NCBI GenBank assembly: GCA_903883645.1
Contig: CAISBR010000014.1
Coordinates: forward strand, 1-64,000
Reading direction: 5' to 3'
DNA: 64,000 nt
Source: an uncultured Myxococcales bacterium
GTDB taxonomy: Bacteria; Myxococcota_A; UBA9042
Positions 14,166 through 61,590 of the stretch are shown here, piece after piece. The notes beneath the pieces were generated by a model. The model saw only the letters and a list, made by a program, of their open reading frames with translations. It had not been told where the DNA came from and made no database searches. Both the position numbers and the translations under genes were made by a program. Position 1 is the first letter of the stretch; each line of letters opens with the position of its first letter.

Positions 14166-16049
14166 TCACTCGCCATTCCACACAACGTCGAAAAGTTCAA
14201 CATTGCTCTGCAACGTGCCGTCCTGCTTTAGCTTTAGCCGGGCAGCGGCGATCACCCAGGCCTTGGTACCCAGCCCCACGATTGTCGGCGAAAACCCTGC
14301 AATATCTTTATCTTGCAACAGATCGCGGGCACCCAAAGTACCGAGCTTGGGCAGGTGTTGCAGCAGCAAGTCCGCGCGGCGCGTATCTTGGTGAGCAACG
14401 AGCAAACCACCGCTCGCGTGCCGCACTACCGCAATATCGGCGCCCAGGCGGTGCAGGCCATCGGGTCGCGCACCATTGTCGAGCACTTCGCTATGCACAC
14501 CGCTCGGCCCCTGCCGCACCAGCAGCAGCTTAGAGCCGTTGCCCCCTTGGCACACCGCCCACAGCTCGCCGTCGCCACCCTCGACGATCTGCACAAAACG
14601 CCCAAGATCACCTTCACTTTCAGGAACTTGCGCGGCACTTACCACAGCCTTGCTCCAAGCGCCGCCGTCGTAGCGATAGAGCGCCAAGTCCCGCGTGGTC
14701 GAGCTGTAGGCCGCCAGCGCCAGCTGCCCGGACGCCAGGGTCCGCAGCGCAAGCGACGCCCCGCGCCCTTGCGGCTCGATGTCGAGCGGCGCCGGCCCCA
14801 CCGCCTTGGGCAGACACACGCCCGCCGCACACACCTGATCCAGAATGCACGAAGAACAGTTTTTTTGTGGTGTTACGCACTGGGTCGCGCCCAGCTTGGC
14901 GACACATTGCTGCCCTGTCGGACACGGACCGCCACACGGCGCCAGCGGCGCTGCGACCACCTGGCTATCGACCTCCGCCACCTGCCACTGGCTCGGTTCG
15001 GTGGGGTGCAACTGCTTAGACTGCCACATGATTACCCGCGCCGCGGTCGGCGGACTGGCCAGCGGCGCCGCGGGCACAAAAGCTGCCACCACCGGCTTGC
15101 CGTCCGCCGCAAGCGTCAGCGCCACCGACTCGCCAATACCTGTAAACATAGCTAAATTGTGTCGAATTACACTTCCATCGGCAGCCCACTCGGCGTAGAT
15201 CAGCGCCTCGTGCGTGGCATCGCGGGCCACCAGCGCCACCGCCCCTTGGGGCAACGCCACGGCGGCCAAGCGCCGCCCCACATCGGGCCCCGGCTCCGCC
15301 ACGCCCTGCCGCGGACCCAGCGGATCGCCCACCACCTCCGCATTGTCGGGCAATCCAAGCAACCAGCGAGTCGAAGAAGCCGCATGGGGTGGCGCGGCGG
15401 CGTAACGCGTGGCCACCACATCGCCATAGCGCCGGTCGTAGGCAAGATGCGCCAGGCCGCTGCCGCTGCCGACCAGCACGCCAGGCCAGCCGATCTCACC
15501 AGCCGGCAGGGGTGGCAAGTCTTTGCACGCCAAGCTTATTGCCAAGCTGGCGCAGCCTTCGGGCATCCGCGCGACTTCGTTGTCGACCACCGCCAGCTTG
15601 CCGCTCGGACAACTGGCCGCCGCGGCCGGTACGCAACGGTCGAGACGCACGGCGCACGCCTTGCCGCTCGGGCAGACCCCGCCGCACGGCGTGTGGTTCT
15701 GGCAGAGGCCCCATAGGCAGGTGCGCCCACTGCCGCAGTCGCTGTCGCCCTGGCACGGCTTGGGCACGCATACGCCACTTTGGCATACGGTACCGGGGTC
15801 TAGGCACGAAGCGCTGGCCGAGCACCCCTGCCGCGGCCGACAGCGGCCCTCGTCGCAGCGCTCGCCCAAGCAGCAGCCGTCGTCGCCCTGGCACGGCAGG
15901 TCGGCAAGGCACGTTTTGCCTGCGGTGCAATGGAAGCCCGACGGACACTGCGACGTGGCGGCACACGCCAGCGGACCAGGGGGCGGCGGGTCACTGCACG
16001 CAAACAGACCTATGAATACAGATACTAGCCAACAGCGTGCGGTCGTCAT
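14166..16049 (-). CDS. Cys-rich lipoprotein with repetitive Cys module and propeller-like region
   Basis: The 627-residue product has a lipobox (IGLFAC) and then about 120 residues carrying some 30 cysteines in the pattern CxxxxxCPSGxxCxxGxC, seen in secreted myxobacterial proteins. The rest (about 150-627) is a mainly beta, Ala/Gly-rich region with repeated motifs such as LALAAYSSTTRDLALYRYDG, which suggests a propeller or another repeat fold. A second small Cys cluster lies near the middle (PCGGPCPTGQQC). No enzyme motif is visible. The ATG overlaps the stop of the next upstream gene (ATGA), so the two lipoproteins are made together and may form one surface complex. Confidence 0.75.
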   Translation of the reverse strand: MTTARCWLVSVFIGLFACSDPPPPGPLACAATSQCPSGFHCTAGKTCLADLPCQGDDGCCLGERCDEGRCRPRQGCSASASCLDPGTVCQSGVCVPKPCQGDSDCGSGRTCLWGLCQNHTPCGGVCPSGKACAVRLDRCVPAAAASCPSGKLAVVDNEVARMPEGCASLAISLACKDLPPLPAGEIGWPGVLVGSGSGLAHLAYDRRYGDVVATRYAAAPPHAASSTRWLLGLPDNAEVVGDPLGPRQGVAEPGPDVGRRLAAVALPQGAVALVARDATHEALIYAEWAADGSVIRHNLAMFTGIGESVALTLAADGKPVVAAFVPAAPLASPPTAARVIMWQSKQLHPTEPSQWQVAEVDSQVVAAPLAPCGGPCPTGQQCVAKLGATQCVTPQKNCSSCILDQVCAAGVCLPKAVGPAPLDIEPQGRGASLALRTLASGQLALAAYSSTTRDLALYRYDGGAWSKAVVSAAQVPESEGDLGRFVQIVEGGDGELWAVCQGGNGSKLLLVRQGPSGVHSEVLDNGARPDGLHRLGADIAVVRHASGGLLVAHQDTRRADLLLQHLPKLGTLGARDLLQDKDIAGFSPTIVGLGTKAWVIAAARLKLKQDGTLQSNVELFDVVWNGE

Positions 16050-17917
16050 GGCGCCCCCGCCAGCTCGCCCAGGGCAATCCCCAACAGCAGCCAATCGCTT
16101 TGCGCGCCGCCACTTTGCACGCCCACCAGCTCTGCCGAAAGCGGCAGCTTGACGAGCGCGGCCACCGCCTGCTGCACATCTACATCAAATTGAAGGGGTT
16201 GCGCGAGAAGCAGCGACACCGCCAGCTTAGCCACCGCCGGCGCCAGCGCCTGCCAGTTGGCGTACGGCGCGATCGGGTCGCCCACCACCGCAATCTTGGG
16301 CACCCCCACCGAGCGAACCGCCAACACCAGCTTGCCGCCCACAACCTGCAGCGCGACGGCTACTTGCAGATCCATCACCAACTCTACCGCGGTGAGCCAA
16401 CGCCCATCGACCCGCGCCTCGACCCGCGCCGTCAAGTCGCGAATCCCAAGCGAAAGCACAGTCGCGGTGGGCTCTTGCGCCATATGCACCAGCGGCGCAT
16501 CTTCGGGCCGGGCCGAGGGGGCGATCTGCACCCGCACCGACGCGCCCGCACTCGCCAAGCGCCGCACTCCCGGCATGGCCACATCCAGCGCACCCAAACC
16601 CAGCAAAAGCTTGCCCGCCGTCGTCGCATACAGTTGCTCGCTGTCCGCAGCGGCGCAGATCAAGCCCGAGCGCAGCGTCGCCCACACCGCCTCTTCTACA
16701 GCCCGCGTCGAGAGCAAAAGCGCCACATCCACCGCCCGCGGCGCACTCGTACCATCGGCCAGCCACTGCGTCATCTGCTGCGGCAGATCGGGCGGCGGCC
16801 CCTCGGGCAATTTGCCAAACGTTAGCGCCGCATCGGGCCCCGGCTCGACCACGCACGGATGCGCCACAGCAAACACACTGGCATCCATTCGGCCCCGCAG
16901 CGCTGCGTCTTTGACGTCGAAGGCCTGCGGCGACGGTCGCACCCGCACCCGCAGCGGCCCCACCGGCTCGCCCAGCAGGTCGCCCAGCAGCGGCGCCGCC
17001 TGCCCCAACAGCGCCCGCACATCCACCGGCACCTCAACATCGAGCGGCTTGCCGTTCAGCGCCTGACTTAGCACCTGTTGCACCAGCAAATTCCCCACCA
17101 TTTCTAGCAGGTTACTCATCAGCGGCCCGAGCAGATCTTTAATGCCCGCCATCGCGTCGCTACCCAGCTTGCCCGTCGCGCACAGCTCGCACTCTAGGCA
17201 CGGGTCCTCGAGCAGCAGCTGATCGGTACACTCGTCGAGCGCGCAGTCTTTGCTCAGCGTAAAGCCGATATCGTCGAGCACGGGCTGCTGCACCTGCGTC
17301 GTCACCGCTAGCTTGCCCGCCGCATCGACCCCCAACACCACGTCGAGCTGAGCCGATAACGTCGCGATATGCGCAGTAGTTTGGCCTACATCCACCCCAT
17401 CGTGCAGGTGGCAGGCCACGTCGCTTTCCATGCCCAAGAAGCTCGCCGCGCCAAATACGACCCCTTGCACCACGCCAATACGCGCATGATCAAAGGCGAT
17501 TCGAATCCGCGCCGGGCTCGATCCCTCGACCAGCTCAATCTTTAGCGACGCCATGTCGAGCGTCAGGATCAGGTCGCGCGCGCCCGCCTTGCCCTTAAAC
17601 AGCCCCAAACCACCGGCAAATTGCAGCGGTTGCGGCCCCAGCAGCTTGGCCACTTCGATTTGCGCCACGCCGCCCGGCCCCGTGCCAAACAGCGCCTTGA
17701 GCAGTGCCACCATATGGCCGGCAATCTCATCAAAACCATGTTGAGTAATACGAACTTGCGCGGCCTTGGGCAGCAGCAACTCACTGGGCGACTGCGGCGG
17801 CGGCAGCGGCCCCGCACACGTCGTGCAACTCTGCCCGCCACAAGCGATCAGCAGCCCCGGCAGCAGCCACGCGAGCAGGCGACGCCAGGGCGGCAGCAGT
17901 CCGGTGGGCAGCCCCAT
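16046..17917 (-). CDS. Large lipoprotein of unknown function
   Basis: The 623-residue product has a lipoprotein signal (LAWLLPGLLIACGG). The mature protein is dominated by alternating strands and helices, with amphipathic stretches such as VDVRALLGQAAPLLGDLLG and repeated mentions of conserved LxxALxxA segments. A few Cys pairs sit near residues 230-260 (DCALDECTDQ, then CLECELCATG). I do not recognise the family. The general look recalls lipid-binding tubular domains, but this is a guess. A GTG at 17920 directly precedes the chosen ATG. It is the first gene of a coupled pair with the Cys-rich lipoprotein and starts 13 bp after the GGDEF gene stop, so all three may share a transcript. Confidence 0.72.
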   Translation of the reverse strand: MGLPTGLLPPWRRLLAWLLPGLLIACGGQSCTTCAGPLPPPQSPSELLLPKAAQVRITQHGFDEIAGHMVALLKALFGTGPGGVAQIEVAKLLGPQPLQFAGGLGLFKGKAGARDLILTLDMASLKIELVEGSSPARIRIAFDHARIGVVQGVVFGAASFLGMESDVACHLHDGVDVGQTTAHIATLSAQLDVVLGVDAAGKLAVTTQVQQPVLDDIGFTLSKDCALDECTDQLLLEDPCLECELCATGKLGSDAMAGIKDLLGPLMSNLLEMVGNLLVQQVLSQALNGKPLDVEVPVDVRALLGQAAPLLGDLLGEPVGPLRVRVRPSPQAFDVKDAALRGRMDASVFAVAHPCVVEPGPDAALTFGKLPEGPPPDLPQQMTQWLADGTSAPRAVDVALLLSTRAVEEAVWATLRSGLICAAADSEQLYATTAGKLLLGLGALDVAMPGVRRLASAGASVRVQIAPSARPEDAPLVHMAQEPTATVLSLGIRDLTARVEARVDGRWLTAVELVMDLQVAVALQVVGGKLVLAVRSVGVPKIAVVGDPIAPYANWQALAPAVAKLAVSLLLAQPLQFDVDVQQAVAALVKLPLSAELVGVQSGGAQSDWLLLGIALGELAGAP

Positions 17918-17929
17918 CACCGAGGCGCG

Positions 17930-18835
17930 CTAACCGACCACGCGGTTACGGCCTTCGTTCTTGGCCTTGTAAAGATTCTCGTCGGCGGCAGCCAGCAGGT
18001 CTTCGACCCGGGTCATCGGCTCGGCCACCGTACCCACGCCCAGCGAACAGGTCATCTTCAGCGAGGTGCCCTCAAAGGCGTAGGTGTGCTCCTCGACCAG
18101 GGTGCGCAAGGCTTCGGCAAAGGCAATCGCCTTTTCGTGATTCATCTCGGGCACAACGATGCAGAACTCTTCGCCACCATACCGCGCAAACAGCTCTTCG
18201 CGGCGAATACGCGAGCTGACCAGCTTGGCGAACTCGCGCAGCACAAAGTCGCCCATCAGGTGGCCATAGGTGTCGTTCACTTTCTTGAAGAAGTCGAGAT
18301 CCAGCATGATCACCGACAGATCGCGCTGGTAGCGCTTGGCCCGGGCAAATTCCTTGTCTAAGAAGTCGAGCAGCGCCCGCTTGTTGGCCACCTGCGTCAG
18401 GCTATCTTCGATGGTAAGCCGATAGATCTCTTCGTGAAATGCCGCTTCAATATTGTCGCCGGCCAAGAACTTGAAGATCGAGTCGCCCACATGCACATAG
18501 TCGCCCGTCGCAAGCATCGCGGAGCCGTGCACTTGCGCCTGGTTGCGATAGGTGCCGTTGGTCGACATGTTGTCGACAAGCCGGTAGCCCTGCTCGGTCG
18601 GCTCAATGCGGGCGTGATACCGCGAAACGCTGTCGCTTTTCAGCGCGATGGTACTCTCGGGATCGCGGCCAATCGTAACCACCGAATCGGTGACCTCGAT
18701 CCGACGACCGATCTCGGGACCGCGGACCATCACCAAAAACGCGTCGCGCGACTGCCCTATGCCGGCAAGGTCGCGCACCGAGGTGATGCGGGTCTGGGCA
18801 TCCAAATGACTAGCGGTGGTGCGCATTTGCGACAT
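17930..18835 (-). CDS. Diguanylate cyclase with N-terminal FHA domain
   Basis: The 301-residue product joins an FHA domain (about 34-125; TIGRDPES, then SVSRYHARI, then STNGTYRN, all the usual phosphothreonine-binding positions) to a GGDEF domain (about 140-301; GGEEF at 220-224, MLDLDFFKKVND, SLGVG). It should make cyclic di-GMP from two GTP. The inhibitory-site RxxD upstream of GGEEF reads RREE, so product inhibition may be weak. The same domain order is known in DgcB of Bdellovibrio, needed for prey invasion. The FHA domain makes this a probable target of the Ser/Thr kinases in the window. It is the most upstream gene before the two lipoproteins. Confidence 0.94.
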   Translation of the reverse strand: MSQMRTTASHLDAQTRITSVRDLAGIGQSRDAFLVMVRGPEIGRRIEVTDSVVTIGRDPESTIALKSDSVSRYHARIEPTEQGYRLVDNMSTNGTYRNQAQVHGSAMLATGDYVHVGDSIFKFLAGDNIEAAFHEEIYRLTIEDSLTQVANKRALLDFLDKEFARAKRYQRDLSVIMLDLDFFKKVNDTYGHLMGDFVLREFAKLVSSRIRREELFARYGGEEFCIVVPEMNHEKAIAFAEALRTLVEEHTYAFEGTSLKMTCSLGVGTVAEPMTRVEDLLAAADENLYKAKNEGRNRVVG

Positions 18836-18886
18836 TCTACGTCTCGCTCGGCCAGCGTGCGGGGGTAAGGCAAACCAGAATAGACA

Positions 18887-19999
18887 TTACCAGCGGCTGC
18901 CGCCCGAAGCAACGCCATTCGCCGTGGCCGAGTGCAGCCCATCGTCGCGCTCGCGAAGCCATTGCACCAGCGCATCGACGTACTCGGCCACCCGCGGACA
19001 GGTAACGCCACTTCCGGCCAAAGCCAGGCGCGTTTGTGTCGCATCAAAGCGCACTTCGCAATCGAACCACTCTAAAAAACTGCGCTCGTGCCGCACCTGG
19101 CCGCTCACCGCCGGGATCTTGCGCAGCATCGACTGCAGCCGCCCCTGCCACGACAGCAATGGCCGCGGCCGCCCAGCCGCATCGGCCACCGCGTCAAAAA
19201 ACGACCGCGCCGTCATGGGTTGCTCATCGACCAGGTGGAACGTGCCCCCCTCGGTCTGCGGCAGCCGCGCCAAGTGCACCGCCGCCTGCACCGCGTAATC
19301 CACGGGCGCGATGTGCAGCGGGTGCGTCCCCGAAATGGGCAGCACAATCGCATGTTCCGAATGGGTAATCTGCGACGCCAGCGCGTACACACCCTCGAGC
19401 CGACCCGCCTCGCCGGTGCGCGAATCGCCCACCAGAATCGGCACCCGCACCACCGTAATCGGCAGCTTGGCCATCGCCGCGCGCGCCAGCTGTTCGGCCT
19501 CCGCCTTGGTCCGCTCGTAGGGATTGCGAAAGGCTTGGCCGACGACCAGCTCGTGCTCGTGCACCGACCCCGTGCGATTGCCCGCGACAAACACCGTCGA
19601 CCACACACACAGCCGGCGCAATTTCTTCATACCCAAGGCCAGTTCCAAGGTCTCGCGCAGGCCCTCTACGTTCACCTGGCGCATCCGCGGCGCCTCGATC
19701 CCAAGGTAGTGAATGGCGGCCAAGTGGTGCACTTCTTCGACTTCGGCGTGCAGCCGCCGCACATCGGCACCCGACAGCCCCAGGTCGAGCGCCAGGATAT
19801 CACCTTCTAGAACCTCGGCCTTGCCCGGCCCCATTTGCGTCAATTCCGTCGCTAGTTCGCGAGCTTGCAGGGCAAACTTCTCGCGCGCCAGTACCAGCAC
19901 GTGGTCACCGGTGCCGGTCAACTCGCGCGCCAGACGGCGGGCCGCGTCGAGCGGAAACCCCGTGACCAGCACCGTCCGCGCGCTCGGGCTCTGGGTCAT
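18887..19999 (-). CDS. Extended SDR / fatty acyl reductase-like NAD(P)-binding protein
   Basis: The 370-residue product has a Rossmann N-terminus (VLVTGFPLDAARRLAREL, where the usual TGxxGxxG glycines are partly lost), a conserved HLAAIHYLG, the catalytic STVFVAG, and YERTKAEAE giving Tyr and Lys of the SDR triad. The middle resembles the NAD-binding domain of fatty acyl-CoA reductases (male sterility family), and LVDEQPMTARSFFDAV fits substrate recruitment. The substrate is not known. The gene has ATG ATG at its start. The second (19999) sits 5 bases after AGGAGG and is preferred. It follows coaE with only 9 bp between stop and start, so the two are probably cotranscribed. Confidence 0.85.
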   Translation of the reverse strand: MTQSPSARTVLVTGFPLDAARRLARELTGTGDHVLVLAREKFALQARELATELTQMGPGKAEVLEGDILALDLGLSGADVRRLHAEVEEVHHLAAIHYLGIEAPRMRQVNVEGLRETLELALGMKKLRRLCVWSTVFVAGNRTGSVHEHELVVGQAFRNPYERTKAEAEQLARAAMAKLPITVVRVPILVGDSRTGEAGRLEGVYALASQITHSEHAIVLPISGTHPLHIAPVDYAVQAAVHLARLPQTEGGTFHLVDEQPMTARSFFDAVADAAGRPRPLLSWQGRLQSMLRKIPAVSGQVRHERSFLEWFDCEVRFDATQTRLALAGSGVTCPRVAEYVDALVQWLRERDDGLHSATANGVASGGSRW

Positions 20000-20008
20000 C
20001 ATGACCTC

Positions 20009-20644
20009 CTAACTAACTGACCTTAGACTGTTTTGCGCCACAAGCAGCTGCGGCCACCACTGCTCCAGCGTCTGCTCAAGTTCCGCTAGCCCGCCATCGT
20101 TGTCAATCGCCCACGTGGCCCGCCCGCGCCGCTCAGCCGAGGTCTGCTGCGCATCCAGCCGTTGCTGGGCCGCCGCCGGACTCAGATGATCGCGCAGCGC
20201 CAGCCGAGCCACTTGGGTCGCCGGTTGCGCCTCGATCGTCAGCGTGGCGTGGCACAGCGTCTGCAGCCCCATGTCGAATAGCAGCGCGGCGTCGAGCAGC
20301 ACCAGCGGCGTGCCATTGTGCCGCTCGAGCTCCACCGCCCGCTGCAGCGCCTCGCGAATAAGCGGGTGCACGATCACTTCCAAGCGCCTGCGCATTACCG
20401 GATCGGCAAACACAATGACACCCAACGCTTTGCGGTCCAATTGCCCGTCTGCCTGCGCCAAGTGCTCGCCAAATTTCGCAAGAATCGCCGCGAGACCGGC
20501 CGTACCGGGTTCGACCACCGCGCGCGCTACCTGATCGGCATCGAGATGTACGGCACCGCGCTGGCGCAGCCACGCTGCCACGGTCGACTTGCCGCAAGCG
20601 ATACCGCCCGTAAGCCCCAAAATGTACGTAGAATTCGCCGTCAT
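20009..20644 (-). CDS. coaE: Dephospho-CoA kinase
   Basis: The 211-residue product has the P-loop GLTGGIACGKST, the DADQVAR nucleotide segment, and the conserved HPLIRE and LLFDMGL motifs. The last step of CoA synthesis, phosphorylation of the 3'-hydroxyl of dephospho-CoA, is its expected reaction. Length is typical. The reductase-like SDR gene follows closely, and the AgmX-like gene ends 18 bp before it, so the three may lie on one transcript. Confidence 0.95.
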   Translation of the reverse strand: MTANSTYILGLTGGIACGKSTVAAWLRQRGAVHLDADQVARAVVEPGTAGLAAILAKFGEHLAQADGQLDRKALGVIVFADPVMRRRLEVIVHPLIREALQRAVELERHNGTPLVLLDAALLFDMGLQTLCHATLTIEAQPATQVARLALRDHLSPAAAQQRLDAQQTSAERRGRATWAIDNDGGLAELEQTLEQWWPQLLVAQNSLRSVS

Positions 20645-20662
20645 CCGCCGCAGCCGGACCGG

Positions 20663-22465
20663 CTAGCCGCCCTTGCTGAACACGTAGCTTTGGCTAAAGG
20701 TCTGCGGCGAAGCGAGCATCGGCAGGCCGCGAATCGCCGTGAACTTATTGCGAATGCAGTCGCCGAACTTGCCCGAGGCGCCCGAGATGCTCACATCGGT
20801 CACGGTGCCCTCAGTGCCGACCGTAAAGGTGACCTTAACCTTGCCGCCTTCGTCGGGGCTGTCGCGCAGGGCCTCTTCGTAGCAGCGCTGTACGGCCGAG
20901 TTCTTGCGGGCCACAACCTTGCTGACCTCGCCCTTGCTCTCCGCCGGCCCTTCTGTACCGCCAAAGCCCATCTTAATGTCGATTTTTACTTCTTCTTTCT
21001 TCTTGCCTTCATCTTTGACTGCGTCGGCCTTGCGGTCGCCGAAGCCGCCCTTCGAGCCCGCATCGACCTTGCGCACCGTGCCGCCCCCCGCATTGCTGCC
21101 GCCGAGCTTGACGCCGCCCATACCGCCGGGACCGTCGCCTTCTTCGTTGCCGCCATCGCCGGTTTTGCCAAAGTTGGCCGCCACGACTTCGCCGCTCGAG
21201 CCATCGTCGCCCGCGGCATAGAACTTGCTGCCCTGGGGCTTGAACGCGCCGGCAACCGTCTTTTGCTCAACCTGAGCGCGGGCTTGCCGCTTGAGCTCTT
21301 CGGGGTCGACTTGCTTACCAGCGGCCTGTGGCTTCTCCACCTTGGCTTCTTGCTTGGCCTGCTTCTTCTCGACCTCTTTCTTGACCTCTTTTTCCTGCTC
21401 TTGCTTGGCCTTGTCCGACATCACATCGGCCACCGGCTTCTTCTCTTCTTCCTTCTTGTCCTCTTTTTCTTCGATCTGCACTTCGTAGATTTGCTGATCT
21501 TGCTGCTCTTCGTTCTGCACGTTCTTCACGAAGCGCTCGTGGTGCTCGTAGTAAAGCCGCGACTGAACCACCAGCGAAATCAGCAGGATGGCCGAAATGG
21601 CAAACGACAGCGTCCAGGTCGAGTCGTGAACCAGCGGGCCAAACACCTGCGAAACCAGGCTCTTGCGTGGCATGGCCGGCACAGTCACCGACTGCTTCAC
21701 CACCTGCAACAGCAGCGTATACGGGCCCAGCGAGGCGCGCGCACGGGCCTTCAGCGGCAAGGTGAATTCAATAAAATCGCCGCTTTGCGCGACCACTTTC
21801 TTGGCCGTGGCTTCCGCTAGATCCATCGGCGTATCGCCGATCGCCAAGCGCAGCTGGCAGTCTTTCGGCAGGCGAACGTGGAAGTCCGTCGCTCCTTTTT
21901 TGCCCAAGAATGTCGCCGGGTTACCCTTGTAGTCACCCTCAGGCAGCACCATCGTCGACTTGACGTTCGAGCTAATGATGATCGGCGAGCCAGCGTGGAA
22001 CACCTGATCGCTCAGCAGGCGATCTTCGTGCACCAAGCCGACGCGCAGCACGGTCTCTTCGCGCGTCAGGGTCGGCACCGAGTCGCCGCGGACGAACTGG
22101 AACATCAAGATGATGTCGCCCATCGACAGCGAACCACCGGTAAACGCTTCGATCGGCACACATTTGGTGCCCTTGATCGTAGTCACCTGCGACTTGACGG
22201 CCTCCATGCCGCCGGCCGGTCCGCCACGCAGGTTGATGCCATGCGACGGGTCCTGCGGCAGCACGACGAAGTACTGGCCACCTTGCAGCACCGCTACCGG
22301 AACTTGCGCAGGAAAGTCAGGGTAATCTGCTGGCGGAATCTGGATGGTGCAGTCGGGCCGGGCGCCAATCGACACGTCGATGCGGCGGTCCAAGACGCGC
22401 TCGGCAACCACCTGCCCCCGGTAGACCACGCCGATTCTGAGTACGCGGCTGGTATCGAGACCCAT
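20663..22465 (-). CDS. FHA-like / transmembrane / AgmX-PglI C-terminal domain protein (copy 1)
   Basis: The 600-residue product has two similar N-terminal modules (about 8-128 and 138-258). Each begins VLRxGxVxxxxxxxxxV and holds an FHA-like pattern (SIGARPDCTIQIPP). One membrane helix (about 284-301) is followed by an Lys/Glu-rich charged segment and a Gly-rich linker. The C-terminal 80 residues (RKNSAVQRCYEEALRDSP, then GKVKVTFTVGTEGTVTDVS) are the AgmX/PglI domain, a TonB-like fold in the periplasm. Such a layout suits a protein that reads a cytoplasmic phospho-signal and transmits force or contact across the membrane. AGGAG sits 7 bases before the ATG at 22465. A paralogue is 470 bp upstream. 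Confidence 0.88.
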   Translation of the reverse strand: MGLDTSRVLRIGVVYRGQVVAERVLDRRIDVSIGARPDCTIQIPPADYPDFPAQVPVAVLQGGQYFVVLPQDPSHGINLRGGPAGGMEAVKSQVTTIKGTKCVPIEAFTGGSLSMGDIILMFQFVRGDSVPTLTREETVLRVGLVHEDRLLSDQVFHAGSPIIISSNVKSTMVLPEGDYKGNPATFLGKKGATDFHVRLPKDCQLRLAIGDTPMDLAEATAKKVVAQSGDFIEFTLPLKARARASLGPYTLLLQVVKQSVTVPAMPRKSLVSQVFGPLVHDSTWTLSFAISAILLISLVVQSRLYYEHHERFVKNVQNEEQQDQQIYEVQIEEKEDKKEEEKKPVADVMSDKAKQEQEKEVKKEVEKKQAKQEAKVEKPQAAGKQVDPEELKRQARAQVEQKTVAGAFKPQGSKFYAAGDDGSSGEVVAANFGKTGDGGNEEGDGPGGMGGVKLGGSNAGGGTVRKVDAGSKGGFGDRKADAVKDEGKKKEEVKIDIKMGFGGTEGPAESKGEVSKVVARKNSAVQRCYEEALRDSPDEGGKVKVTFTVGTEGTVTDVSISGASGKFGDCIRNKFTAIRGLPMLASPQTFSQSYVFSKGG

Positions 22466-22934
22466 TCGCTCGCTCCTGGGGTGCCTTGCCCGCGGCTTCC
22501 CCGCTTGCCGCGGCCAGGCAGGCCCTGCGCTTCTACGCGTCACACCATCGCACCGCGGTTAGACGTCGTGACGGGCGTCTGGCGGCTGCTGCTACCCGAC
22601 CACTGGGTCGAGCGCTCAGCATCAATTCTGTTGCGGCCCACTCGCTTAGGACACTCGGTGCCGTGGCGAGACCCGCAGGTCAGGGATCGTGCTCGGCCCA
22701 CGCCGATGCAATACGCGATAGTAGTGGCCGCGTAGGCGCGCTGTCAAACCATCCGAGAGCCGCATCGGCACCATTGCCACGGGCTCCGCGACACCGCCGG
22801 GAGGCGCCGTGTGGCACTTGCGGGTCACCAAGTCAGACGCGGCAGGATTTGGACTGGTCTAGTCGCCATGGGCGGCGGCAGCGCTCGACATATTTGCACA
22901 TGCGCGTGCTTGAACGGCTGCGGCTGCGGGGGGC
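22466..22934 (-). other. 469-bp gap between the two AgmX-like genes
   Basis: No gene with coding character is visible. The gap separates two genes on the same strand and holds the promoter of copy 1 (22718-22747). About 245 bases of leader lie between the expected start of transcription and the ATG at 22465. I see no clear terminator after the stop of copy 2 at 22935. Two in-frame open stretches exist but lack ribosome binding sites or conserved residues. Confidence 0.6.
22718..22747 (-). promoter_or_regulatory. Sigma70-like promoter for AgmX copy 1
   Basis: On the minus strand there is a perfect TTGACA (-35, plus-strand 22742-22747), an 18-base spacer and TACTAT (-10, plus-strand 22718-22723). 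Transcription would start near 22711 and give a long leader. The two AgmX paralogues share the same -35, which implies separate expression of each. Confidence 0.6.
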
Positions 22935-24719
22935 CTAGCCCTTGCTAAAGACGTAGCTCTGGCTAAAGGTCTGCGGCGACGCAAGGTCTGGAAGGCCGCG
23001 AATCGAACTGAATTTCGCCTTAATGCAGTCGGCGAATTTGCCCGAGGCGCCCGAAACGCTGACGTCGGTCACGGTGCCTTCGGTGCCGACCGTAAAGGTG
23101 ACCTTGACCTTGCCACCCTCGCCGGGGTTGTCGCGCAAGGCCTCTTCGTAGCAGCGTTGGACCGCCGAATTCTTGCGGGCGATCATCTTCTTGATTTCGT
23201 CTTTGCCTTCGCCACTGCCTTCCATCGAGCCGGGGCTGAAGTTGATGTTCACTTTCTCTTCAGGGGCCTTCTTGGCGCCCGATTCGACGACTTTTTGGTC
23301 GCGGTTGCCGATGAGGCCTTTGCCGTCGCCCGTGCCGCCGACCCGCTGCACGCCGGCGCCGGCGGCCTTGCCGGTGGCGATCTTGATGCCAGGCGAGCCG
23401 TCTTTGCCGTCGCCCCCGTCGCCGCCAGTATCGCCAAAGGTCCGCGCCACCACGTCGCCCGTCTCGCCCGCGCCGGCTTCTTGATAGAATTTGCTACCTT
23501 TCGACCCCTCAAACGCGCCGGCGACGGTGTTCTTCTTGACCGAGTCGTCGGCTTCGGCGCGGCGAATGCGGGTAGAGTCTTCGGGATCGGCGGCAGCAGG
23601 ACCGCTATTCTTCTTGGCGTCTGCGCTCTTGTCGGCCTTCGCAGGCACCTTTTCTTGCTTGCTCGGCACCATCGCCGGCGCCGTGGGCTCGGGTTCCTTG
23701 GTGTCTTCGGCCTTTTCTGGCTCTTTGGGCTTGTCGGGCTCCTTTTGCTCAACCACCACTTCGATCGGCATGCGCGCTTCGTCGACCTCGGCGGCGCGGG
23801 CCTTGTCGAGAAAACGCCCCGTGTGCGTCTGGTAGTAGTGTGCCTGCGCGGCAATACCGCCAAAGCAAAGCAGCGAGACCGTAAACGACACCCACCACGC
23901 CGGATCGCCCAGTACCCCACGAATCAGCGCTTGCCCAAAGGTCTTTCTCTGCAGCACTGGCACCGTCACCGTCTGCTTGACCACCTGGAACAGCACGGTG
24001 TGCGAGCCCATCACGGCGCGGCCACGGGTACCCAAGGCAAAGTGGCACAGCGTCGACTCGCCCTCGACACGCGCTTTGCCCCGCGCTTGCAGGTCTTTTA
24101 GCTCAAGGGGCTGCTCGTCGATGGCGACGCGAATCTTCATGGCGCTCGGCGCGCGCATCGTAACCGAGCCGTCCGTGTGATTCTGGAACACCAAGGGCGG
24201 CCCCTGGTAGTCCTCGGGCGGCAGCACGATCGAGCAGGCGCGGGCGTTGCCGATCGATACCTCTTTGGTGTTGGGGTAGATGCGGTCGTCGATCAGCCGT
24301 TCGTCGAACACGAGGCCCAAGCGCAAGACCGTGCGATCGCGCGTCTCCGTCGGATGGCTGTCGCCGCGCACGAACTGAAACATCACGGTCACATCGCCCT
24401 GGGTGATCGACCCACCGGCGGCGGACTCAATGGGCAAGCCTTGGCGACCCTTGATCGTGGCTGCACCGCCGGCAGCGGCCCCGCGCAGACTGACACGCGC
24501 AAGTGGATCGCTGGGCACTACCAAGTAATGCTGGCCGTGATCGAAGACCATGAAATCAATAAATTCAGGGAACTCCGGATGATCCTTGGGCGAAACCTGC
24601 ACCGTGGCACCGGCGCGACGGCCAATCGAGATGTCGATCTTGCGTTCGATCACCTCTTCGTGAATCACGCTGCCGCGGTACACGATACCTAGCCGGATGT
24701 TGCGATTGGAGTTGCTCAT
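22935..24719 (-). CDS. FHA-like / transmembrane / AgmX-PglI C-terminal domain protein (copy 2)
   Basis: The 594-residue product is a paralogue of the protein encoded at 20663-22465 with the same order: two FHA-like modules, a membrane helix (WWVSFTVSLLCFGGIAAQ), a Pro/Lys/Glu-rich linker, a Gly/Lys-rich spacer and the AgmX/PglI domain. The last 80 residues are nearly identical between the copies, while the linkers differ in length and composition. Conservation at the C-terminus suggests a common partner in the periplasm, probably an ExbB/ExbD motor or an outer-membrane protein. AGAGGAAA precedes the ATG at 24719. Confidence 0.88.
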   Translation of the reverse strand: MSNSNRNIRLGIVYRGSVIHEEVIERKIDISIGRRAGATVQVSPKDHPEFPEFIDFMVFDHGQHYLVVPSDPLARVSLRGAAAGGAATIKGRQGLPIESAAGGSITQGDVTVMFQFVRGDSHPTETRDRTVLRLGLVFDERLIDDRIYPNTKEVSIGNARACSIVLPPEDYQGPPLVFQNHTDGSVTMRAPSAMKIRVAIDEQPLELKDLQARGKARVEGESTLCHFALGTRGRAVMGSHTVLFQVVKQTVTVPVLQRKTFGQALIRGVLGDPAWWVSFTVSLLCFGGIAAQAHYYQTHTGRFLDKARAAEVDEARMPIEVVVEQKEPDKPKEPEKAEDTKEPEPTAPAMVPSKQEKVPAKADKSADAKKNSGPAAADPEDSTRIRRAEADDSVKKNTVAGAFEGSKGSKFYQEAGAGETGDVVARTFGDTGGDGGDGKDGSPGIKIATGKAAGAGVQRVGGTGDGKGLIGNRDQKVVESGAKKAPEEKVNINFSPGSMEGSGEGKDEIKKMIARKNSAVQRCYEEALRDNPGEGGKVKVTFTVGTEGTVTDVSVSGASGKFADCIKAKFSSIRGLPDLASPQTFSQSYVFSKG

Positions 24720-25034
24720 CGATTTCCTCTTTCGAATTCGCCAGCACGCGCACGTTCTGCGGCCATGGCCGCCCCACCACCACGCTTGCCGGCGGCGGCG
24801 ACTGGGAAAAACCGCACTCGCCCATGGCGCAACCGCGCGCTGCGGCGGACAGCTTCGCCCCTTTGCCGCCACAAGGGGTAGTTGGCCCAAGACCCGTAAG
24901 GCATAAACTATTGCAGTTGCAGCACTACTGTCAACCGCGACCCTTGGCCAACCCGCAAACGCATCGGCATCGGCTTGTGCCAACCGACAAGGCTGCTACA
25001 CTCGACCGGCCGCTGGGCGCGGCAAGGGGCAGGC
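24720..25034. other. 315-bp divergent intergenic region
   Basis: This region holds the promoter of AgmX copy 2 (24906-24934, minus strand) and presumably that of the plus-strand lipoprotein gene that starts at 25035. I see no further gene. A purine-rich stretch near 24725 supplies the ribosome binding site of copy 2. Confidence 0.6.
24906..24934 (-). promoter_or_regulatory. Sigma70-like promoter for AgmX copy 2
   Basis: TTGACA (plus-strand 24929-24934) is followed after 17 bases by ATAGTT, or after 18 by TAGTTT (24905-24910). Expected start of transcription is close to 24899, giving a leader of about 180 bases. The -35 is the same as that of copy 1. Confidence 0.5.
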
Positions 25035-26759
25035 ATGGCAAACCGCAAACCCGCAGTTGGACTGCACAGTCTCCGCACCTGGCTTACACCGCTCGCGTGT
25101 GCGGTGGGGTTGGTGACCGGTAGCGCGGGCTGCAGCAGCGACGATGGCGCGACCGCCAGCGGCCCGAGCATCGACCGCGCCACCCAAGACCCCCTCGCCA
25201 TTGGCTGCGACGCCGCGAGCGCCGGCTGTTGGGACGCGGAACTAGCCAAACTACCTGATCTGCAAACGATGGTTGGCACGATCGCCAAGCCCGTACAGGC
25301 CGCCGGCGCCCTGACCGACAAGGCCGGCAACCGGCTAATTTGGGCCGAATTGGCCGCAACCGCCGACGCGCCGCGCACCGAAGTGAGCGTCGCCTTTGCC
25401 CGCTGCAGCGCGAAAAATCTGTGCAAGGTGGGCCGCGCCGACTACACCGCCAGCGGCGCCACCTTTGTCGATGCCAGCGGCGCGCCCTTTGGCGACGTGA
25501 CGATTGGCCGCCCCATCCTGCGCAAGAAGCTGAAAGCACACGCTCCGGATAAGGACCCGACGCTGCTGGCGCCGCTTGAGACCTCGGCGAAGCCCGACGC
25601 TGAGCTGGCGTGGGCCACTTGGTCGGGCATGCAATTCAAGAAGCGCCGGTGCGTGGTGCTCAATGCCTACGGCCCCGAAGTGGGCCTCAGCGCGGCGCCC
25701 ATCGCCCAGGCGTGCAGCACCAGCGGCCGCTTCGACAGCACTGAAGTCATCGACTATGCGCGGGTTTCAGACATGGCGGCGATCCTGCCCACGCTGACGC
25801 CACTCGATGCCCTGTTCTGGGTCGGCGCGGGGGTATACGAGGAGCGCACCGAGGGCGAGCGGCGGCACGGCATGACCTTGTCGCGCGGCGTGTTTGGCGA
25901 CCAGCTGGTCTACGGCAAGGGCTCGCCCGACCTGATCAAGGGGCTACCACTCGGCGGGCCGGGCCTGGTTGTACTGGCCGGCGCAGATACCATGGCCGCC
26001 AATAGCTGGACAGATATCAACACCTTGGCCAATGTACTGCACGATGTGCCGGCGCGGGCAATGGTGGGCTTTACGGCCAAGACGGGCGGAACGGCGCTCG
26101 TTGCGGCGGCGGGTCAACTAGGCAAGTCGCTGTTTGGCGGCGCGGCCTTGTCGACGGCCTTGGCGGGAGCGGGTGCCCCCGTGGTGTCGGATCTCGCCCC
26201 GGATACCCTAAGCAAGTGGAAATGGGCGGCGCCAAATGCGTCGTTCTGGGGCGGCAAGAATCCCACGAAGGCGGCAATCAAGATGTACGTGCGCCTTGAA
26301 CCACCGATCTGCACCCACGTGGCCGATGCCTGTACCCGGAGCACCTTTAACGCCGCGTACAAAACGGATCAGGTGCCCGCTACCGAAATGAATGGCGGCA
26401 ACTCGACGTATATCTGCGATCTGCAGTTCGACGGCCCATTCTTTAGCTGCGACGTCGACAACCCCGACGCGGGGCAGAAATTCATGATCCGCGGCCTGAT
26501 GCGCGGCCACGCCGAAGGGGATCGCTTCTGGGTATTGGCACTCGGCACCGGCCTGACACTGTATAAAGACCTGTTGGTCTTGGGCGAAGGCGTGCTCGGC
26601 AAGTCGGACCATGGCGGTGGGTCATCGTCGGTGCAGTTCAGCGGCGACGCCGTAGTGGGCACGTGGACTGACCCCGATGGGCGCTGCTGCACCACCAAGG
26701 GCGCCGCTGCGCTGACCAATTACAACAGCGAGCCCAGCCTGCTGCAGACCTGGCCGTAA
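25035..26759 (+). CDS. Large lipoprotein of unknown function
   Basis: The 574-residue product has a signal peptide and lipobox (VTGSAGC, Cys33), so it is predicted to be lipid-anchored. The mature part mixes alpha and beta structure, with three regions rich in Gly/Ala (for example LPLGGPGLVVLAGADTMAA). Cysteines are spread in pairs near the C-terminus (CTHVADAC, then CDLQFDGPFFSC, then GRCC). No known domain is recognised. The ATG at 25035 gives a standard signal peptide; an upstream start at 24975 would add 20 residues without one. It runs divergently from AgmX copy 2 and 43 bp before ribH. Confidence 0.72.
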   Translation: MANRKPAVGLHSLRTWLTPLACAVGLVTGSAGCSSDDGATASGPSIDRATQDPLAIGCDAASAGCWDAELAKLPDLQTMVGTIAKPVQAAGALTDKAGNRLIWAELAATADAPRTEVSVAFARCSAKNLCKVGRADYTASGATFVDASGAPFGDVTIGRPILRKKLKAHAPDKDPTLLAPLETSAKPDAELAWATWSGMQFKKRRCVVLNAYGPEVGLSAAPIAQACSTSGRFDSTEVIDYARVSDMAAILPTLTPLDALFWVGAGVYEERTEGERRHGMTLSRGVFGDQLVYGKGSPDLIKGLPLGGPGLVVLAGADTMAANSWTDINTLANVLHDVPARAMVGFTAKTGGTALVAAAGQLGKSLFGGAALSTALAGAGAPVVSDLAPDTLSKWKWAAPNASFWGGKNPTKAAIKMYVRLEPPICTHVADACTRSTFNAAYKTDQVPATEMNGGNSTYICDLQFDGPFFSCDVDNPDAGQKFMIRGLMRGHAEGDRFWVLALGTGLTLYKDLLVLGEGVLGKSDHGGGSSSVQFSGDAVVGTWTDPDGRCCTTKGAAALTNYNSEPSLLQTWP

Positions 26760-56982: not shown

Positions 56983-57642
56983 ATGTTTCAGGCTATTTCC
57001 ACGGCGTTCGAGGAAGGTGGCATCGGTATGTACTTCATCCTGGTGCACTTGATCTTCATTCTCGCCATCATGTTTGAGCGCATTTTTGTGCTCTACATCC
57101 GGTCGAGTGTGAAGAAGGAGGAGTTCATCAAGCTCCTGCAAGTGCCGATCCTCAAGGGTGATCTCAACACGGTCCTCAAGGTCTGCTCGACCTACCCCTA
57201 CCCGCTGGCGCGCATCGTTCACGCCGGTGTTCTCAAAGTGAAGCGCTCGGACGAAGAAGTCCAAGCGGCGATGGACGAAGCGTATCTGCGCGAAATTCCG
57301 CAGATTGAAAAGCGCGTCGACTACCTCAACTTGCTCGGCAACACCGCCACCCTGGCCGGTTTGCTCGGCACGGTGTTCGGCTTGATCCACACCTTCGCGG
57401 CGATTGGTCGCCCGGAAGTGGACGCGTCGCAGCGTTCGACGATGCTCTCGAAGGGCATCTCGGAAGCAATGAACTGCACGGCGTTCGGTCTCGCGACCGG
57501 TATCGTCGGCGTTCTGGCGTACGCGGTCCTGGCCTCGAAGGCCAAGGAAATCAAAGCGGACATCGACGAAGGTACGGTTCGCGTGCTGAACCTGATCGTT
57601 GCCAATCGTAACAAGATGGGCGACATCAAGGACGCGGCTTAA
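56983..57642 (+). CDS. ExbB/TolQ/MotA-family proton channel protein
   Basis: The 219-residue product has three membrane helices (about 16-39, 118-142 and 160-182) with the family segment LLGNTATLAGLLGTVFGLIHTF and the polar SKGISEAMNCTAFGLATGI. The cytoplasmic loop between helix 1 and 2 is helical and charged. Together with ExbD it should turn proton flow into movement of a TonB-like protein. The ATG at 56983 has GGGAGC upstream. It is followed by two exbD genes, and the AgmX-like proteins of this window are candidate transducers. Confidence 0.92.
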   Translation: MFQAISTAFEEGGIGMYFILVHLIFILAIMFERIFVLYIRSSVKKEEFIKLLQVPILKGDLNTVLKVCSTYPYPLARIVHAGVLKVKRSDEEVQAAMDEAYLREIPQIEKRVDYLNLLGNTATLAGLLGTVFGLIHTFAAIGRPEVDASQRSTMLSKGISEAMNCTAFGLATGIVGVLAYAVLASKAKEIKADIDEGTVRVLNLIVANRNKMGDIKDAA

Positions 57643-57851
57643 GGCCGCAACTTGGCCCGCGCGGGCAGTTCCGGTGCGTCCGGAACCCGCTCCGCTGGCC
57701 GCTGCTAGGTCTCGCCTCGGCGACCGAAGCAGCAAGTGCCTGAGACGAAACACGCTTTCCTGTGATGAGCGCTGCCGCGCCGTCTTGCGGGCCCCGGACG
57801 ATCGCACGATCACCGGACCGCAGGGCGGCGCTGGCAGACGCCCAGTTGCCC

Positions 57852-57889
57852 GACAACGGCAGCATTGCCCGACAACGGCAGCATTGCCC
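57852..57889 (+). repeat. 19-bp direct repeat, two full copies plus a partial
   Basis: The unit gacaacggcagcattgccc occurs exactly twice in tandem and is followed by a diverged third part (gacgacggg). It lies in the exbB-exbD spacer. It could be a regulator binding site or a local duplication. Confidence 0.8.
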
Positions 57890-58018
57890 GACGACGGGAG
57901 CAACAGCAGAGCGCGCTCAGGTGATCACGAGGCCAGACGATCGGCGGCAACAAGTCGCCAACGGCCCGCCCCCACCGCGATCGCGATGCGGCGGCGTGTC
58001 GGCAACTAGTTAGGATAC

Positions 58019-58037
58019 CTCGCGGCTGCGAGTTTTT
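58019..58037 (+). terminator. Possible attenuator between exbB and exbD
   Basis: CTCGC (58019-58023), loop GGCT and GCGAG (58028-58032) form a 5-bp stem followed at once by TTTTT. It lies 25 bases before the exbD start and just before AGGAG. It might stop part of the transcripts that pass exbB. Confidence 0.5.
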
Positions 58038-58061
58038 GCGGCCACGCTACAGGAGTCACCA

Positions 58062-58661
58062 ATGGGTGGTGGTAGTTCCGGAAAAGGCGGCGTTGCTGAC
58101 GCAACTCTCAACGTCGTGCCGTTCATCGATCTGCTGGCTTGTACGGTTTGCTTCTTGCTGATCTCGGCGGTGTGGACCCAGATGTCGCGGATCGACGTCG
58201 ATCAGGCCCTGCCTAAGGCGTCGCCCCATCCGCCACCGACGCCGCCGAAGCCGGAAGCGAAGATCAACATCATGATCACGCAGACCGGCTACTTGGTGAA
58301 CTTGTGGAACGCGGACAAGATCGCGACTCCCAAGCCCGAGCTGGTCACGCCCAAGAAGCTGGCGATCAAGACCGAAGAACTCAAGATCCAGCGCAACAAC
58401 GGCTCGGTCGACAAGTTCAAGGTGTATGACCGCGATAAGCTGCGCGAAACCCTTGAGGGCTTCTTGCGCGACGCCAACCTGGACGACAAGACCAAGGTGA
58501 TGGTGGCCGCGGACGACAAGGTCCAGTACATCCATCTCATTATGACCCTCGACGTCATTTTGACGGCCTGCAAAGACAAAGAGAAGAAGCAGTGCCTAAA
58601 GAACCCGTCGGTCGGCGACCAGAACCTGCTGCGGCAGGAAGGTTTCGCGACGTTCGACTAA
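58062..58661 (+). CDS. ExbD/TolR-family protein 1
   Basis: The 199-residue product has a short cytoplasmic N-terminus, one membrane helix with the essential Asp (NVVPFIDLLACTVCFLL), a Pro-rich segment (PHPPPTPPKPE) and a periplasmic domain with mixed structure, larger than in E. coli ExbD (141 residues). A Cys in the helix is unusual. AGGAGTCACCA precedes the ATG. A second exbD follows 60 bp downstream. Confidence 0.92.
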   Translation: MGGGSSGKGGVADATLNVVPFIDLLACTVCFLLISAVWTQMSRIDVDQALPKASPHPPPTPPKPEAKINIMITQTGYLVNLWNADKIATPKPELVTPKKLAIKTEELKIQRNNGSVDKFKVYDRDKLRETLEGFLRDANLDDKTKVMVAADDKVQYIHLIMTLDVILTACKDKEKKQCLKNPSVGDQNLLRQEGFATFD

Positions 58662-58721
58662 GCACTCTTTACCCATCCGGCTGGCCTGGTCGGCAGCGAC
58701 CCGCACGCATCAGAGGTTTCT

Positions 58722-59321
58722 ATGTCCGTTCATCACCCAGGATCGCGAGCCGGCAGCGGCGTAGCGCTCAAGAGCATTCGCGAGACCATCGTGCACGGCG
58801 GTGGCAAGAACATCTTCGCCACGCTGAACGTGGTGCCGATGATCGACCTGTTTACCATGCTGGTTATCTTTCTGATCCAGCAGTTCAGCGCGTCGGGCGA
58901 GTTGATGCTCGTCAACCCCAACGTGGCGATGCCTAAGGCGTCGAGCATGAAGGAGCTTGAGCGCGCGCCGATCATCTCGCTGACCCGTTGGGACGGCCAG
59001 GATCAGCCGGGCGACATGCTGTTTGAGAACACGAAGATCATCTCGCAAAAAGAGATCAACGAAGTGAAGTATCCGAGCTGGGACATCAAGCCCCTGGCCG
59101 AGATCCTGAAGAAGTCGTGGGTCAATCAGCAAAAGGCCAATGGCCCGACGCCTGAGAAGACCAAGCAGATTCGCGACAACCGCAAGATCATCATCCAGGC
59201 GGACCGTACGGTGCCGTTTGCCGTGGTGAAGATGGTGATGGCGACCTGCGGCCGCAATGAATACCGCGAGCCGAACTTCGCGATCATGGTCGGCAACGAA
59301 GCGAGTGGATCTGCTCCATAG
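58722..59321 (+). CDS. ExbD/TolR-family protein 2
   Basis: The 199-residue product has the membrane helix NVVPMIDLFTMLVIFLI, with the Asp in the same place, and a periplasmic region (from about 60) unlike that of the first ExbD. Two different ExbD proteins next to one ExbB are typical for myxobacterial motor sets. AGAGG precedes the ATG. It is the last gene before a strong terminator. Confidence 0.92.
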   Translation: MSVHHPGSRAGSGVALKSIRETIVHGGGKNIFATLNVVPMIDLFTMLVIFLIQQFSASGELMLVNPNVAMPKASSMKELERAPIISLTRWDGQDQPGDMLFENTKIISQKEINEVKYPSWDIKPLAEILKKSWVNQQKANGPTPEKTKQIRDNRKIIIQADRTVPFAVVKMVMATCGRNEYREPNFAIMVGNEASGSAP

Positions 59322-59352
59322 GCTAGCCGACGACGTAGGGATGCAATGCAAT

Positions 59353-59411
59353 GACCTCGCAGGGTGAGTAGGGCGCGCAACGCCGACCGCCTGCGAGGTC
59401 GCGGCACTTTT
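59353..59411 (+). terminator. Intrinsic terminator after exbB-exbD-exbD
   Basis: GACCTCGCAGG (59353-59363) pairs perfectly with CCTGCGAGGTC (59390-59400). The loop is 26 bases and the T run is short (cactttt). The arm is strong enough to end the exb transcript. Confidence 0.7.
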
Positions 59412-59419
59412 GGAGCAAG

Positions 59420-60154
59420 TTGGCTAACATGATGGTTAATTGGCTGCCGGCGGCGCTAAGAACGTGCTTGATTTTGCTGGCGATCGTAGGCCTGAGCGGC
59501 GAGGCGCTGGCGCGGCCCCAGACCAAGGTGTTCTTGAACGGTGTGCCTGCGCCGGTTTTCTTTAACGACGGCGATAGCTTTACCGTGCTCGGTGGCCAGC
59601 ACGAAGGTATCCGGACGCGCCTAGCGGGCTACAACACCCTTGAAAGTTTTGGCGCAGTGCACCGTTGGGGTGATTGGAACGCCCACGAGCTGTACGTCGT
59701 GGCCAAGATGGCGACGATGAACGCGCGCCGCGGCGTGTGGCACTGCCATTCGGACATGAATCGCGATGGTTACGGGCGCACGCTGTGGACTTGCCCCGAC
59801 CTGGTGCTCGATCAACTGCGCAAGGGCTTGGCCCACGTGATGCTCGTGAGCGACGACGATGCACCAGCGGAGCACTTGGCGGCGATGCGCTCGGCTCAGG
59901 CCGAGAAACGCGGCATTTGGGCCAAGGGCATCCCAGAATTCGTGTTAACTTCGCTACATAGCAAAGACGAAGGCTACGAGGGCACCAACTACAACCGCTT
60001 GGTCTCGACGGCGAACGGCAAGTCGACCAAGTGGATCCACAACGACATTTACAAAGAGTGCCAAGAAGTTTGCCACACTACGGGAACTTGCATGGTCTAC
60101 GTGGCCATGAACCGGCGTTTTGGCGCCACCCGCGCCGAGTGCCTGATGCACTGA
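59420..60154 (+). CDS. Secreted SNase-like nuclease with a Cys-containing C-terminus
   Basis: The 244-residue product has a signal peptide (LILLAIVGLSGEALA) and a thermonuclease-like fold: FFNDGDSFTVLG, GIRTRLAGYNTLES, then DMNRDGYGRTLWTC. These match the DGDT, RLAGIDAPE and YGR signatures of the staphylococcal nuclease family. A C-terminal extension (about 190-244) holds Cys residues (KECQEVCHTTGTCMVY). It should degrade DNA or RNA outside the cell. The TTG start at 59420 has GGAG 4 bases before it; ATG 59429 is possible. Confidence 0.86.
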   Translation: MANMMVNWLPAALRTCLILLAIVGLSGEALARPQTKVFLNGVPAPVFFNDGDSFTVLGGQHEGIRTRLAGYNTLESFGAVHRWGDWNAHELYVVAKMATMNARRGVWHCHSDMNRDGYGRTLWTCPDLVLDQLRKGLAHVMLVSDDDAPAEHLAAMRSAQAEKRGIWAKGIPEFVLTSLHSKDEGYEGTNYNRLVSTANGKSTKWIHNDIYKECQEVCHTTGTCMVYVAMNRRFGATRAECLMH

Positions 60155-60238
60155 GCGCCCTTAGCGCTGAGCCCCGCCCTTTTATTGCACTGAGCCTTTT
60201 GAGCCAGCCGGCCGTCCCAGTCTTTCTAAGGAATCTCC

Positions 60239-61564: not shown

Positions 61565-61590
61565 CCCCAACCCGAACTGAGGATAAGATC

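Follow-up and report, generated by a model that had tools for sequence, protein, structure and literature searches.

Paralogous GltG-like transducers with diverged cytoplasmic modules and homogenised periplasmic halves in an uncultured Myxococcales bacterium

Gene pair and its architecture

The window, which is the whole analysed stretch of 64,000 nucleotides of contig CAISBR010000014.1, encodes on its minus strand two GltG-like transducers, P0001 and P0002, which are paralogues (43% identity over 611 columns, E=2e-150). Each protein combines a pair of related modules in the cytoplasm with a single membrane helix, a charged linker and, at the C-terminus, a disulfide tail of the AgmX/PglI type, as listed below.

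20663-22465, minus strand: P0001, two-module GltG-like transducer, 600 aa (ORF, NF033768 match, family orthologues)
22076-22450, minus strand: P0001 module 1, predicted pseudo-FHA fold, residues 6-130 (AlphaFold model of residues 1-276; profile match to module 2)
21656-22066, minus strand: P0001 module 2, residues 134-270 (GltG juxtamembrane homology, AlphaFold, Foldseek)
21560-21622, minus strand: P0001 transmembrane helix, about residues 282-302, motif S-x3-Q
20951-21559, minus strand: P0001 charged periplasmic linker, about residues 303-505 (homogenised with the P0002 type within genomes)
20666-20950, minus strand: P0001 AgmX/PglI disulfide tail, residues 506-600 (NF033768, 49.5 bits; Cys528 and Cys570 invariant)
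22935-24719, minus strand: P0002, two-module GltG-like transducer, 594 aa (ORF, NF033768 match, paralogy to P0001)
24345-24710, minus strand: P0002 module 1, residues 4-125 (alignment to P0001)
23937-24344, minus strand: P0002 module 2, residues 126-261 (alignment)
23841-23903, minus strand: P0002 transmembrane helix, motif G-x3-Q
23220-23840, minus strand: P0002 charged periplasmic linker
22938-23219, minus strand: P0002 AgmX/PglI disulfide tail (NF033768, 53.9 bits; 82% identical to the P0001 tail)

An earlier note on this DNA had described this layout from the letters alone, and its description was borne out. The two N-terminal modules of each protein, which it had called similar, are homologous by profile-profile comparison (probability 98.3, E=2e-14); the single membrane helix corresponds to a hydrophobic stretch near residue 282 in P0001 and 273 in P0002; the linker that follows is rich in K, E and D in both proteins; and the C-terminal domains, rightly named AgmX/PglI and nearly identical in sequence, both exceed the NF033768 cut-off of 40 bits. 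The cysteine pair of the tail is invariant in 53/53 family members, while the C-termini of P0001 and P0002 score 22-24 bits, below the cut-off, with the TonB_C-like model TIGR01352.

Homogenised periplasmic halves and separate promoters

A query with both modules (E<=1e-25) detects the two-module form in each of the 22 family genomes (22/22) and in none of the 30 genomes from other families of the class (0/30). Nearly all family genomes encode both the P0001 and the P0002 type, mostly in tandem, and several contain a third copy. This confinement to the family, together with the homogenisation of the periplasmic halves within genomes, is what is new about the pair.

Within a genome, the modules of P0001 and P0002 are about 45% and 42% identical, the same as between genomes, and those of each type share 55-63% identity with their own orthologues. 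The tails, on the other hand, are 85% identical within a genome, versus 68% to the partner type elsewhere and 69% to their own orthologues. In a permutation test, within-genome homogenisation is significant for the helix, linker and tail (p<0.001) and not for the modules (p=0.5 and 0.4); likewise, the two types are cleanly apart in the module tree and mixed by lineage in the tail tree. The boundary of homogenisation thus lies near the membrane within one gene, and the pair exemplifies concerted evolution that halts there. A strongly homogenised periplasmic segment around TVAGAF..GSKFY (21206-21295; P0001 residues 391-420) is located between linker and tail.

In genome G013 (locus L102), all 42 of 42 fourfold-degenerate tail sites are identical between the two genes, which indicates that gene conversion took place recently and was limited to the periplasmic part. 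Recent conversion was rejected as the explanation everywhere, as fourfold sites are decisive only in G013: overall, 0.58 of them are identical within genomes versus 0.50 between genomes, and outside G013 the excess is mild at most, which leaves room for older conversion or for co-evolution with a shared partner. A tail common equally to all paralogues was also rejected as the main cause, since within a genome the tails of third copies reach about 57-60% identity, versus 85% for the pair.

The earlier note had further assigned to each gene its own TTGACA promoter, and this holds: the interval 20500-25200 contains just two sigma70-like matches, where 0.6 would be expected by chance, and each lies upstream of one of the genes. 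P0001 also leads a close-packed co-directional run, with gaps of 18, 6 and 51 bp to the three genes that follow, in an order kept in most family genomes (17930-20644 for the downstream part).

24907-24934, minus strand: P0002 promoter TTGACA-N16-AATAGT, or N17 with the -10 shifted by one base (sigma70-like match; conserved in orthologues)
22718-22747, minus strand: P0001 promoter TTGACA-N18-TACTAT (sigma70-like match; conserved in orthologues)
20009-20644, minus strand: coaE, downstream of P0001
18887-20002, minus strand: SDR/thioester-reductase-like gene, downstream of coaE
17930-18835, minus strand: FHA-GGDEF diguanylate cyclase with a canonical N-terminal FHA domain (Pfam PF00498 match at 18485-18679)

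TTGACA with a TAGCAT-like -10 precedes the P0001 orthologue in 18/19 cases. TTGACA also precedes P0002 orthologues (21/21), where the -10 is TA-rich and unlike that of the P0001 type; these sites were counted by direct inspection, as the sigma70 scan misses the relatives' sites because of the differing -10. By chance, TTGACA would occur per 400 bases in about 4% of cases, as estimated from the 12 copies counted on the two strands of the window. Further downstream, after the FHA-GGDEF gene, two large proteins with lipoprotein-like starts and no Pfam match are encoded in a conserved run on the minus strand (14166-17920).

Divergence inside the cell combined with a homogeneous periplasmic half most likely, and most economically, reflects two inputs and one output. 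P0001 and P0002 are accordingly regarded, with fair confidence, as GltG-type (TolA/TonB-like) force transducers, which would pass mechanical force from a proton motor of the inner membrane to the outer membrane and in which diverged cytoplasmic inputs, with a separate promoter for each, would feed one shared periplasmic output, although the homogenisation might also be neutral gene conversion involving no shared partner. A more specific version, put forward tentatively, is a mechanical switch in which the two transducers would be rivals for a single motor and a single outer-membrane partner, their separately expressed tandem non-phospho pseudo-FHA modules reading different partners, while recurrent gene conversion would keep only the periplasmic half identical. 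Alternatively, the pair could form one hetero-oligomeric transducer on one motor, the tails then being identical because they assemble symmetrically and not because the two proteins are used in alternation. The tandem arrangement across most of the family and the homogenised periplasmic halves are consistent with such a complex; it is nevertheless rather unlikely, as the promoters are separate, conserved and different in their -10 elements, and as the two types lie on separate contigs in G001 with tails still 91% identical.

Motor genes and the membrane helix

In the reading of two inputs and one output, the single helix would dock on an ExbB/ExbD-type proton motor, the charged linker would span the periplasm, and the disulfide-bonded tail, by analogy with TonB and GltG, may touch an outer-membrane or periplasmic partner. 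Contact with ExbB/ExbD had also been proposed in the earlier note. It finds indirect support in the operons of single-module relatives, whereas no ExbB/ExbD gene adjoins the pair and the candidate motor of the window lies 32 kb away.

56983-57642, plus strand: candidate motor ExbB (AglRQS-like layout; family orthologues)
58062-58661, plus strand: candidate motor ExbD (AglRQS-like layout)
58722-59321, plus strand: candidate motor second ExbD (AglRQS-like layout)

The ExbB-ExbD-ExbD set at 56983-59321 is the sole three-gene AglRQS-like layout found in the bacterium's own genome by two family searches. It belongs to a conserved family cluster (56983-63261, plus strand), which further encodes a 244-aa protein that matches no family, together with two acidic double-disulfide-repeat proteins; the last protein of the cluster has a C-terminus that is barrel-like and ends in F, as judged by eye. 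The idea that the pair and this motor are physically linked in a conserved way was rejected, as such linkage is seen within the genus only (the window, G002 and G003) and is absent in G001, G008, G009 and G010.

In the sister families, the single-module relatives of G023, G026 and G039 are the fourth gene in ExbB-ExbD-ExbD-transducer operons; in G046 the transducer lies beside ExbD-ExbD, and in G029 an ExbB is near the transducer. The ExbB of the window falls in another clade than the ExbBs beside these single-module transducers, which, like the distance of the motor, counts against the preferred reading, and no member of the latter clade was found among the own-genome ExbBs compared. In other families of the class, the orthologue of the window ExbB adjoins a GltG-like protein that has additional helices at its N-terminus. 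The bacterium itself encodes two GltG-like proteins of this kind (L012 and L014, contigs C99 and C211), with several N-terminal membrane helices ahead of the module.

The SHLS helix motif with the essential histidine of TonB and TolA is absent from P0001 and P0002. A glutamine, invariant in 52/53 family members, occupies the place of this histidine within the motif S/G/A-x3-Q, a replacement that counts against the preferred reading, while the invariance of a residue at this very place counts for it; S-x3-H occurs in some GltG relatives. The pair might accordingly be thought to be motor-free envelope tethers, i.e. proteins anchored in the inner membrane that hold on to the outer one by their tails and are not moved by protons, as motor genes are not adjacent and the ExbB clade of the single-module operons is missing from the set compared. 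This is improbable, since the single-module relatives sit in motor operons and the polar residue of the helix is invariant.

Cytoplasmic modules and relation to known systems

The AlphaFold model of P0001 residues 1-276 has a pLDDT of 88.8, and that of module 2 alone 94.5. In Foldseek searches of the PDB, the P0001 modules match mainly FHA domains and the IRF IAD, which share the same superfold; the FHA matches have probabilities of 0.99-1.00, modest E values of about 0.007-0.1 and TM scores (target) of up to 0.66, and FHA matches in a viral fold library are weak. These models support an FHA/SMAD-type fold for both modules, and the comparison with FHA folds suggested in the earlier note therefore had a positive outcome. 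The 'FHA-like core' named there stands as regards the predicted fold and not as regards family membership, as neither P0001 nor P0002 has a Pfam PF00498 match over the cut-off; a PDB sequence search yielded no solved homologue.

The NCBIfam model of GltG (NF033760) matches both proteins (60.6 and 70 bits, E 1e-16 to 1e-19) only at its positions 204-607 (P0001) and 204-623 (P0002), leaving its N-terminal FHA part unmatched; the equivalog cut-off of 650 is reached by neither protein nor in any of the 90 related genomes searched. GltG-like proteins in other genomes of the phylum comprise a canonical FHA domain, a linker and then a juxtamembrane module. In hhalign comparisons, module 2 matches the GltG juxtamembrane profile (97.9%, E=5e-13), module 1 does so more weakly (87%), and the matches of the modules to the GltG FHA profile are weaker still (79% and 35%). 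P0001 and P0002 thus have the juxtamembrane-type module twice and lack a canonical FHA domain, the tandem modules taking the place of the FHA domain plus juxtamembrane module of GltG.

The SxxH signature of phosphothreonine recognition is found in 19/23 GltG FHA domains of relatives versus 4/53 and 1/53 modules of the P0001/P0002 type. In alignments, these modules do not carry the set of recognition residues GR, SxxH and NG of FHA domains, GR being displaced to G-x-R in module 1. Phosphothreonine binding by the modules is therefore unlikely from their sequences, which runs counter to the reading of a phospho-signal put forward in the earlier note. A converter of phospho-signals to force, in which the modules would bind phosphothreonine and gate the motor, is the least probable of the alternatives, for although it would fit the FHA/SMAD-like fold, the FHA-GGDEF protein from the conserved gene run of P0001 and the canonical FHA domains of the relatives' GltG, the lost signature and the missing Pfam match speak against it. 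Under the preferred reading of two inputs and one output, the modules, FHA/SMAD-like in predicted fold but lacking the phosphothreonine signature, are probably scaffolds for unphosphorylated cytoplasmic partners, which may differ between the two module sets. To our knowledge, little has been established about what GltG-type transducers do with their cytoplasmic part, and a natural pair with diverged cytoplasmic but nearly identical outer portions singles this part out for testing.

The combination of FHA-type module, helix and TonB-like/AgmX domain, which the earlier note had brought forward, is present as regards the AgmX tail and the predicted FHA/SMAD fold, but is not new in outline. GltG (PglI) of M. 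xanthus was described in 2011 as a cytosolic FHA domain, a transmembrane helix and a TonB-like domain, and binds AglR (PMC3169522), while the AglRQS motor is common to GltG and NfsG (PMC3858216); the general idea of a cytoplasmic FHA-type and TonB-like fusion is thus already in the literature for GltG.

P0001 and P0002 share the disulfide tail with GltJ (AgmX), which has other N-terminal domains, and show no match to the GltJ N-terminus in a profile search. A 771-aa ORF of the same genome (G000, contig C237:42475-44739) combines GltJ N-terminal segments with a disulfide tail and may encode a GltJ-like protein. Like TonB and TolA, the pair has a single helix, a periplasmic linker and a TonB_C-like C-terminus, but differs from them in its large cytoplasmic part, in S/G/A-x3-Q replacing the SHLS histidine and in the disulfide tail. 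As with GltG and NfsG (PMC3858216), it is a paralogous transducer pair, separately expressed and possibly served by one motor; however, GltG and NfsG each come from a complete paralogous gene set, whereas here the transducer alone is doubled and its periplasmic halves are homogenised. The parts of a broadly GltG-like protein, namely a juxtamembrane module, a single helix, a linker and an AgmX/PglI tail, are all found in P0001 and P0002, apart from the canonical N-terminal FHA domain. Like GltG, they have a cytoplasmic FHA-type fold (by model), a juxtamembrane module, one helix, a charged linker and an AgmX/PglI TonB-like tail; unlike GltG, they contain two juxtamembrane-type modules in place of a canonical FHA domain and score far below the equivalog cut-off. 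They are thus a variation on GltG and do not make up a kind of their own.
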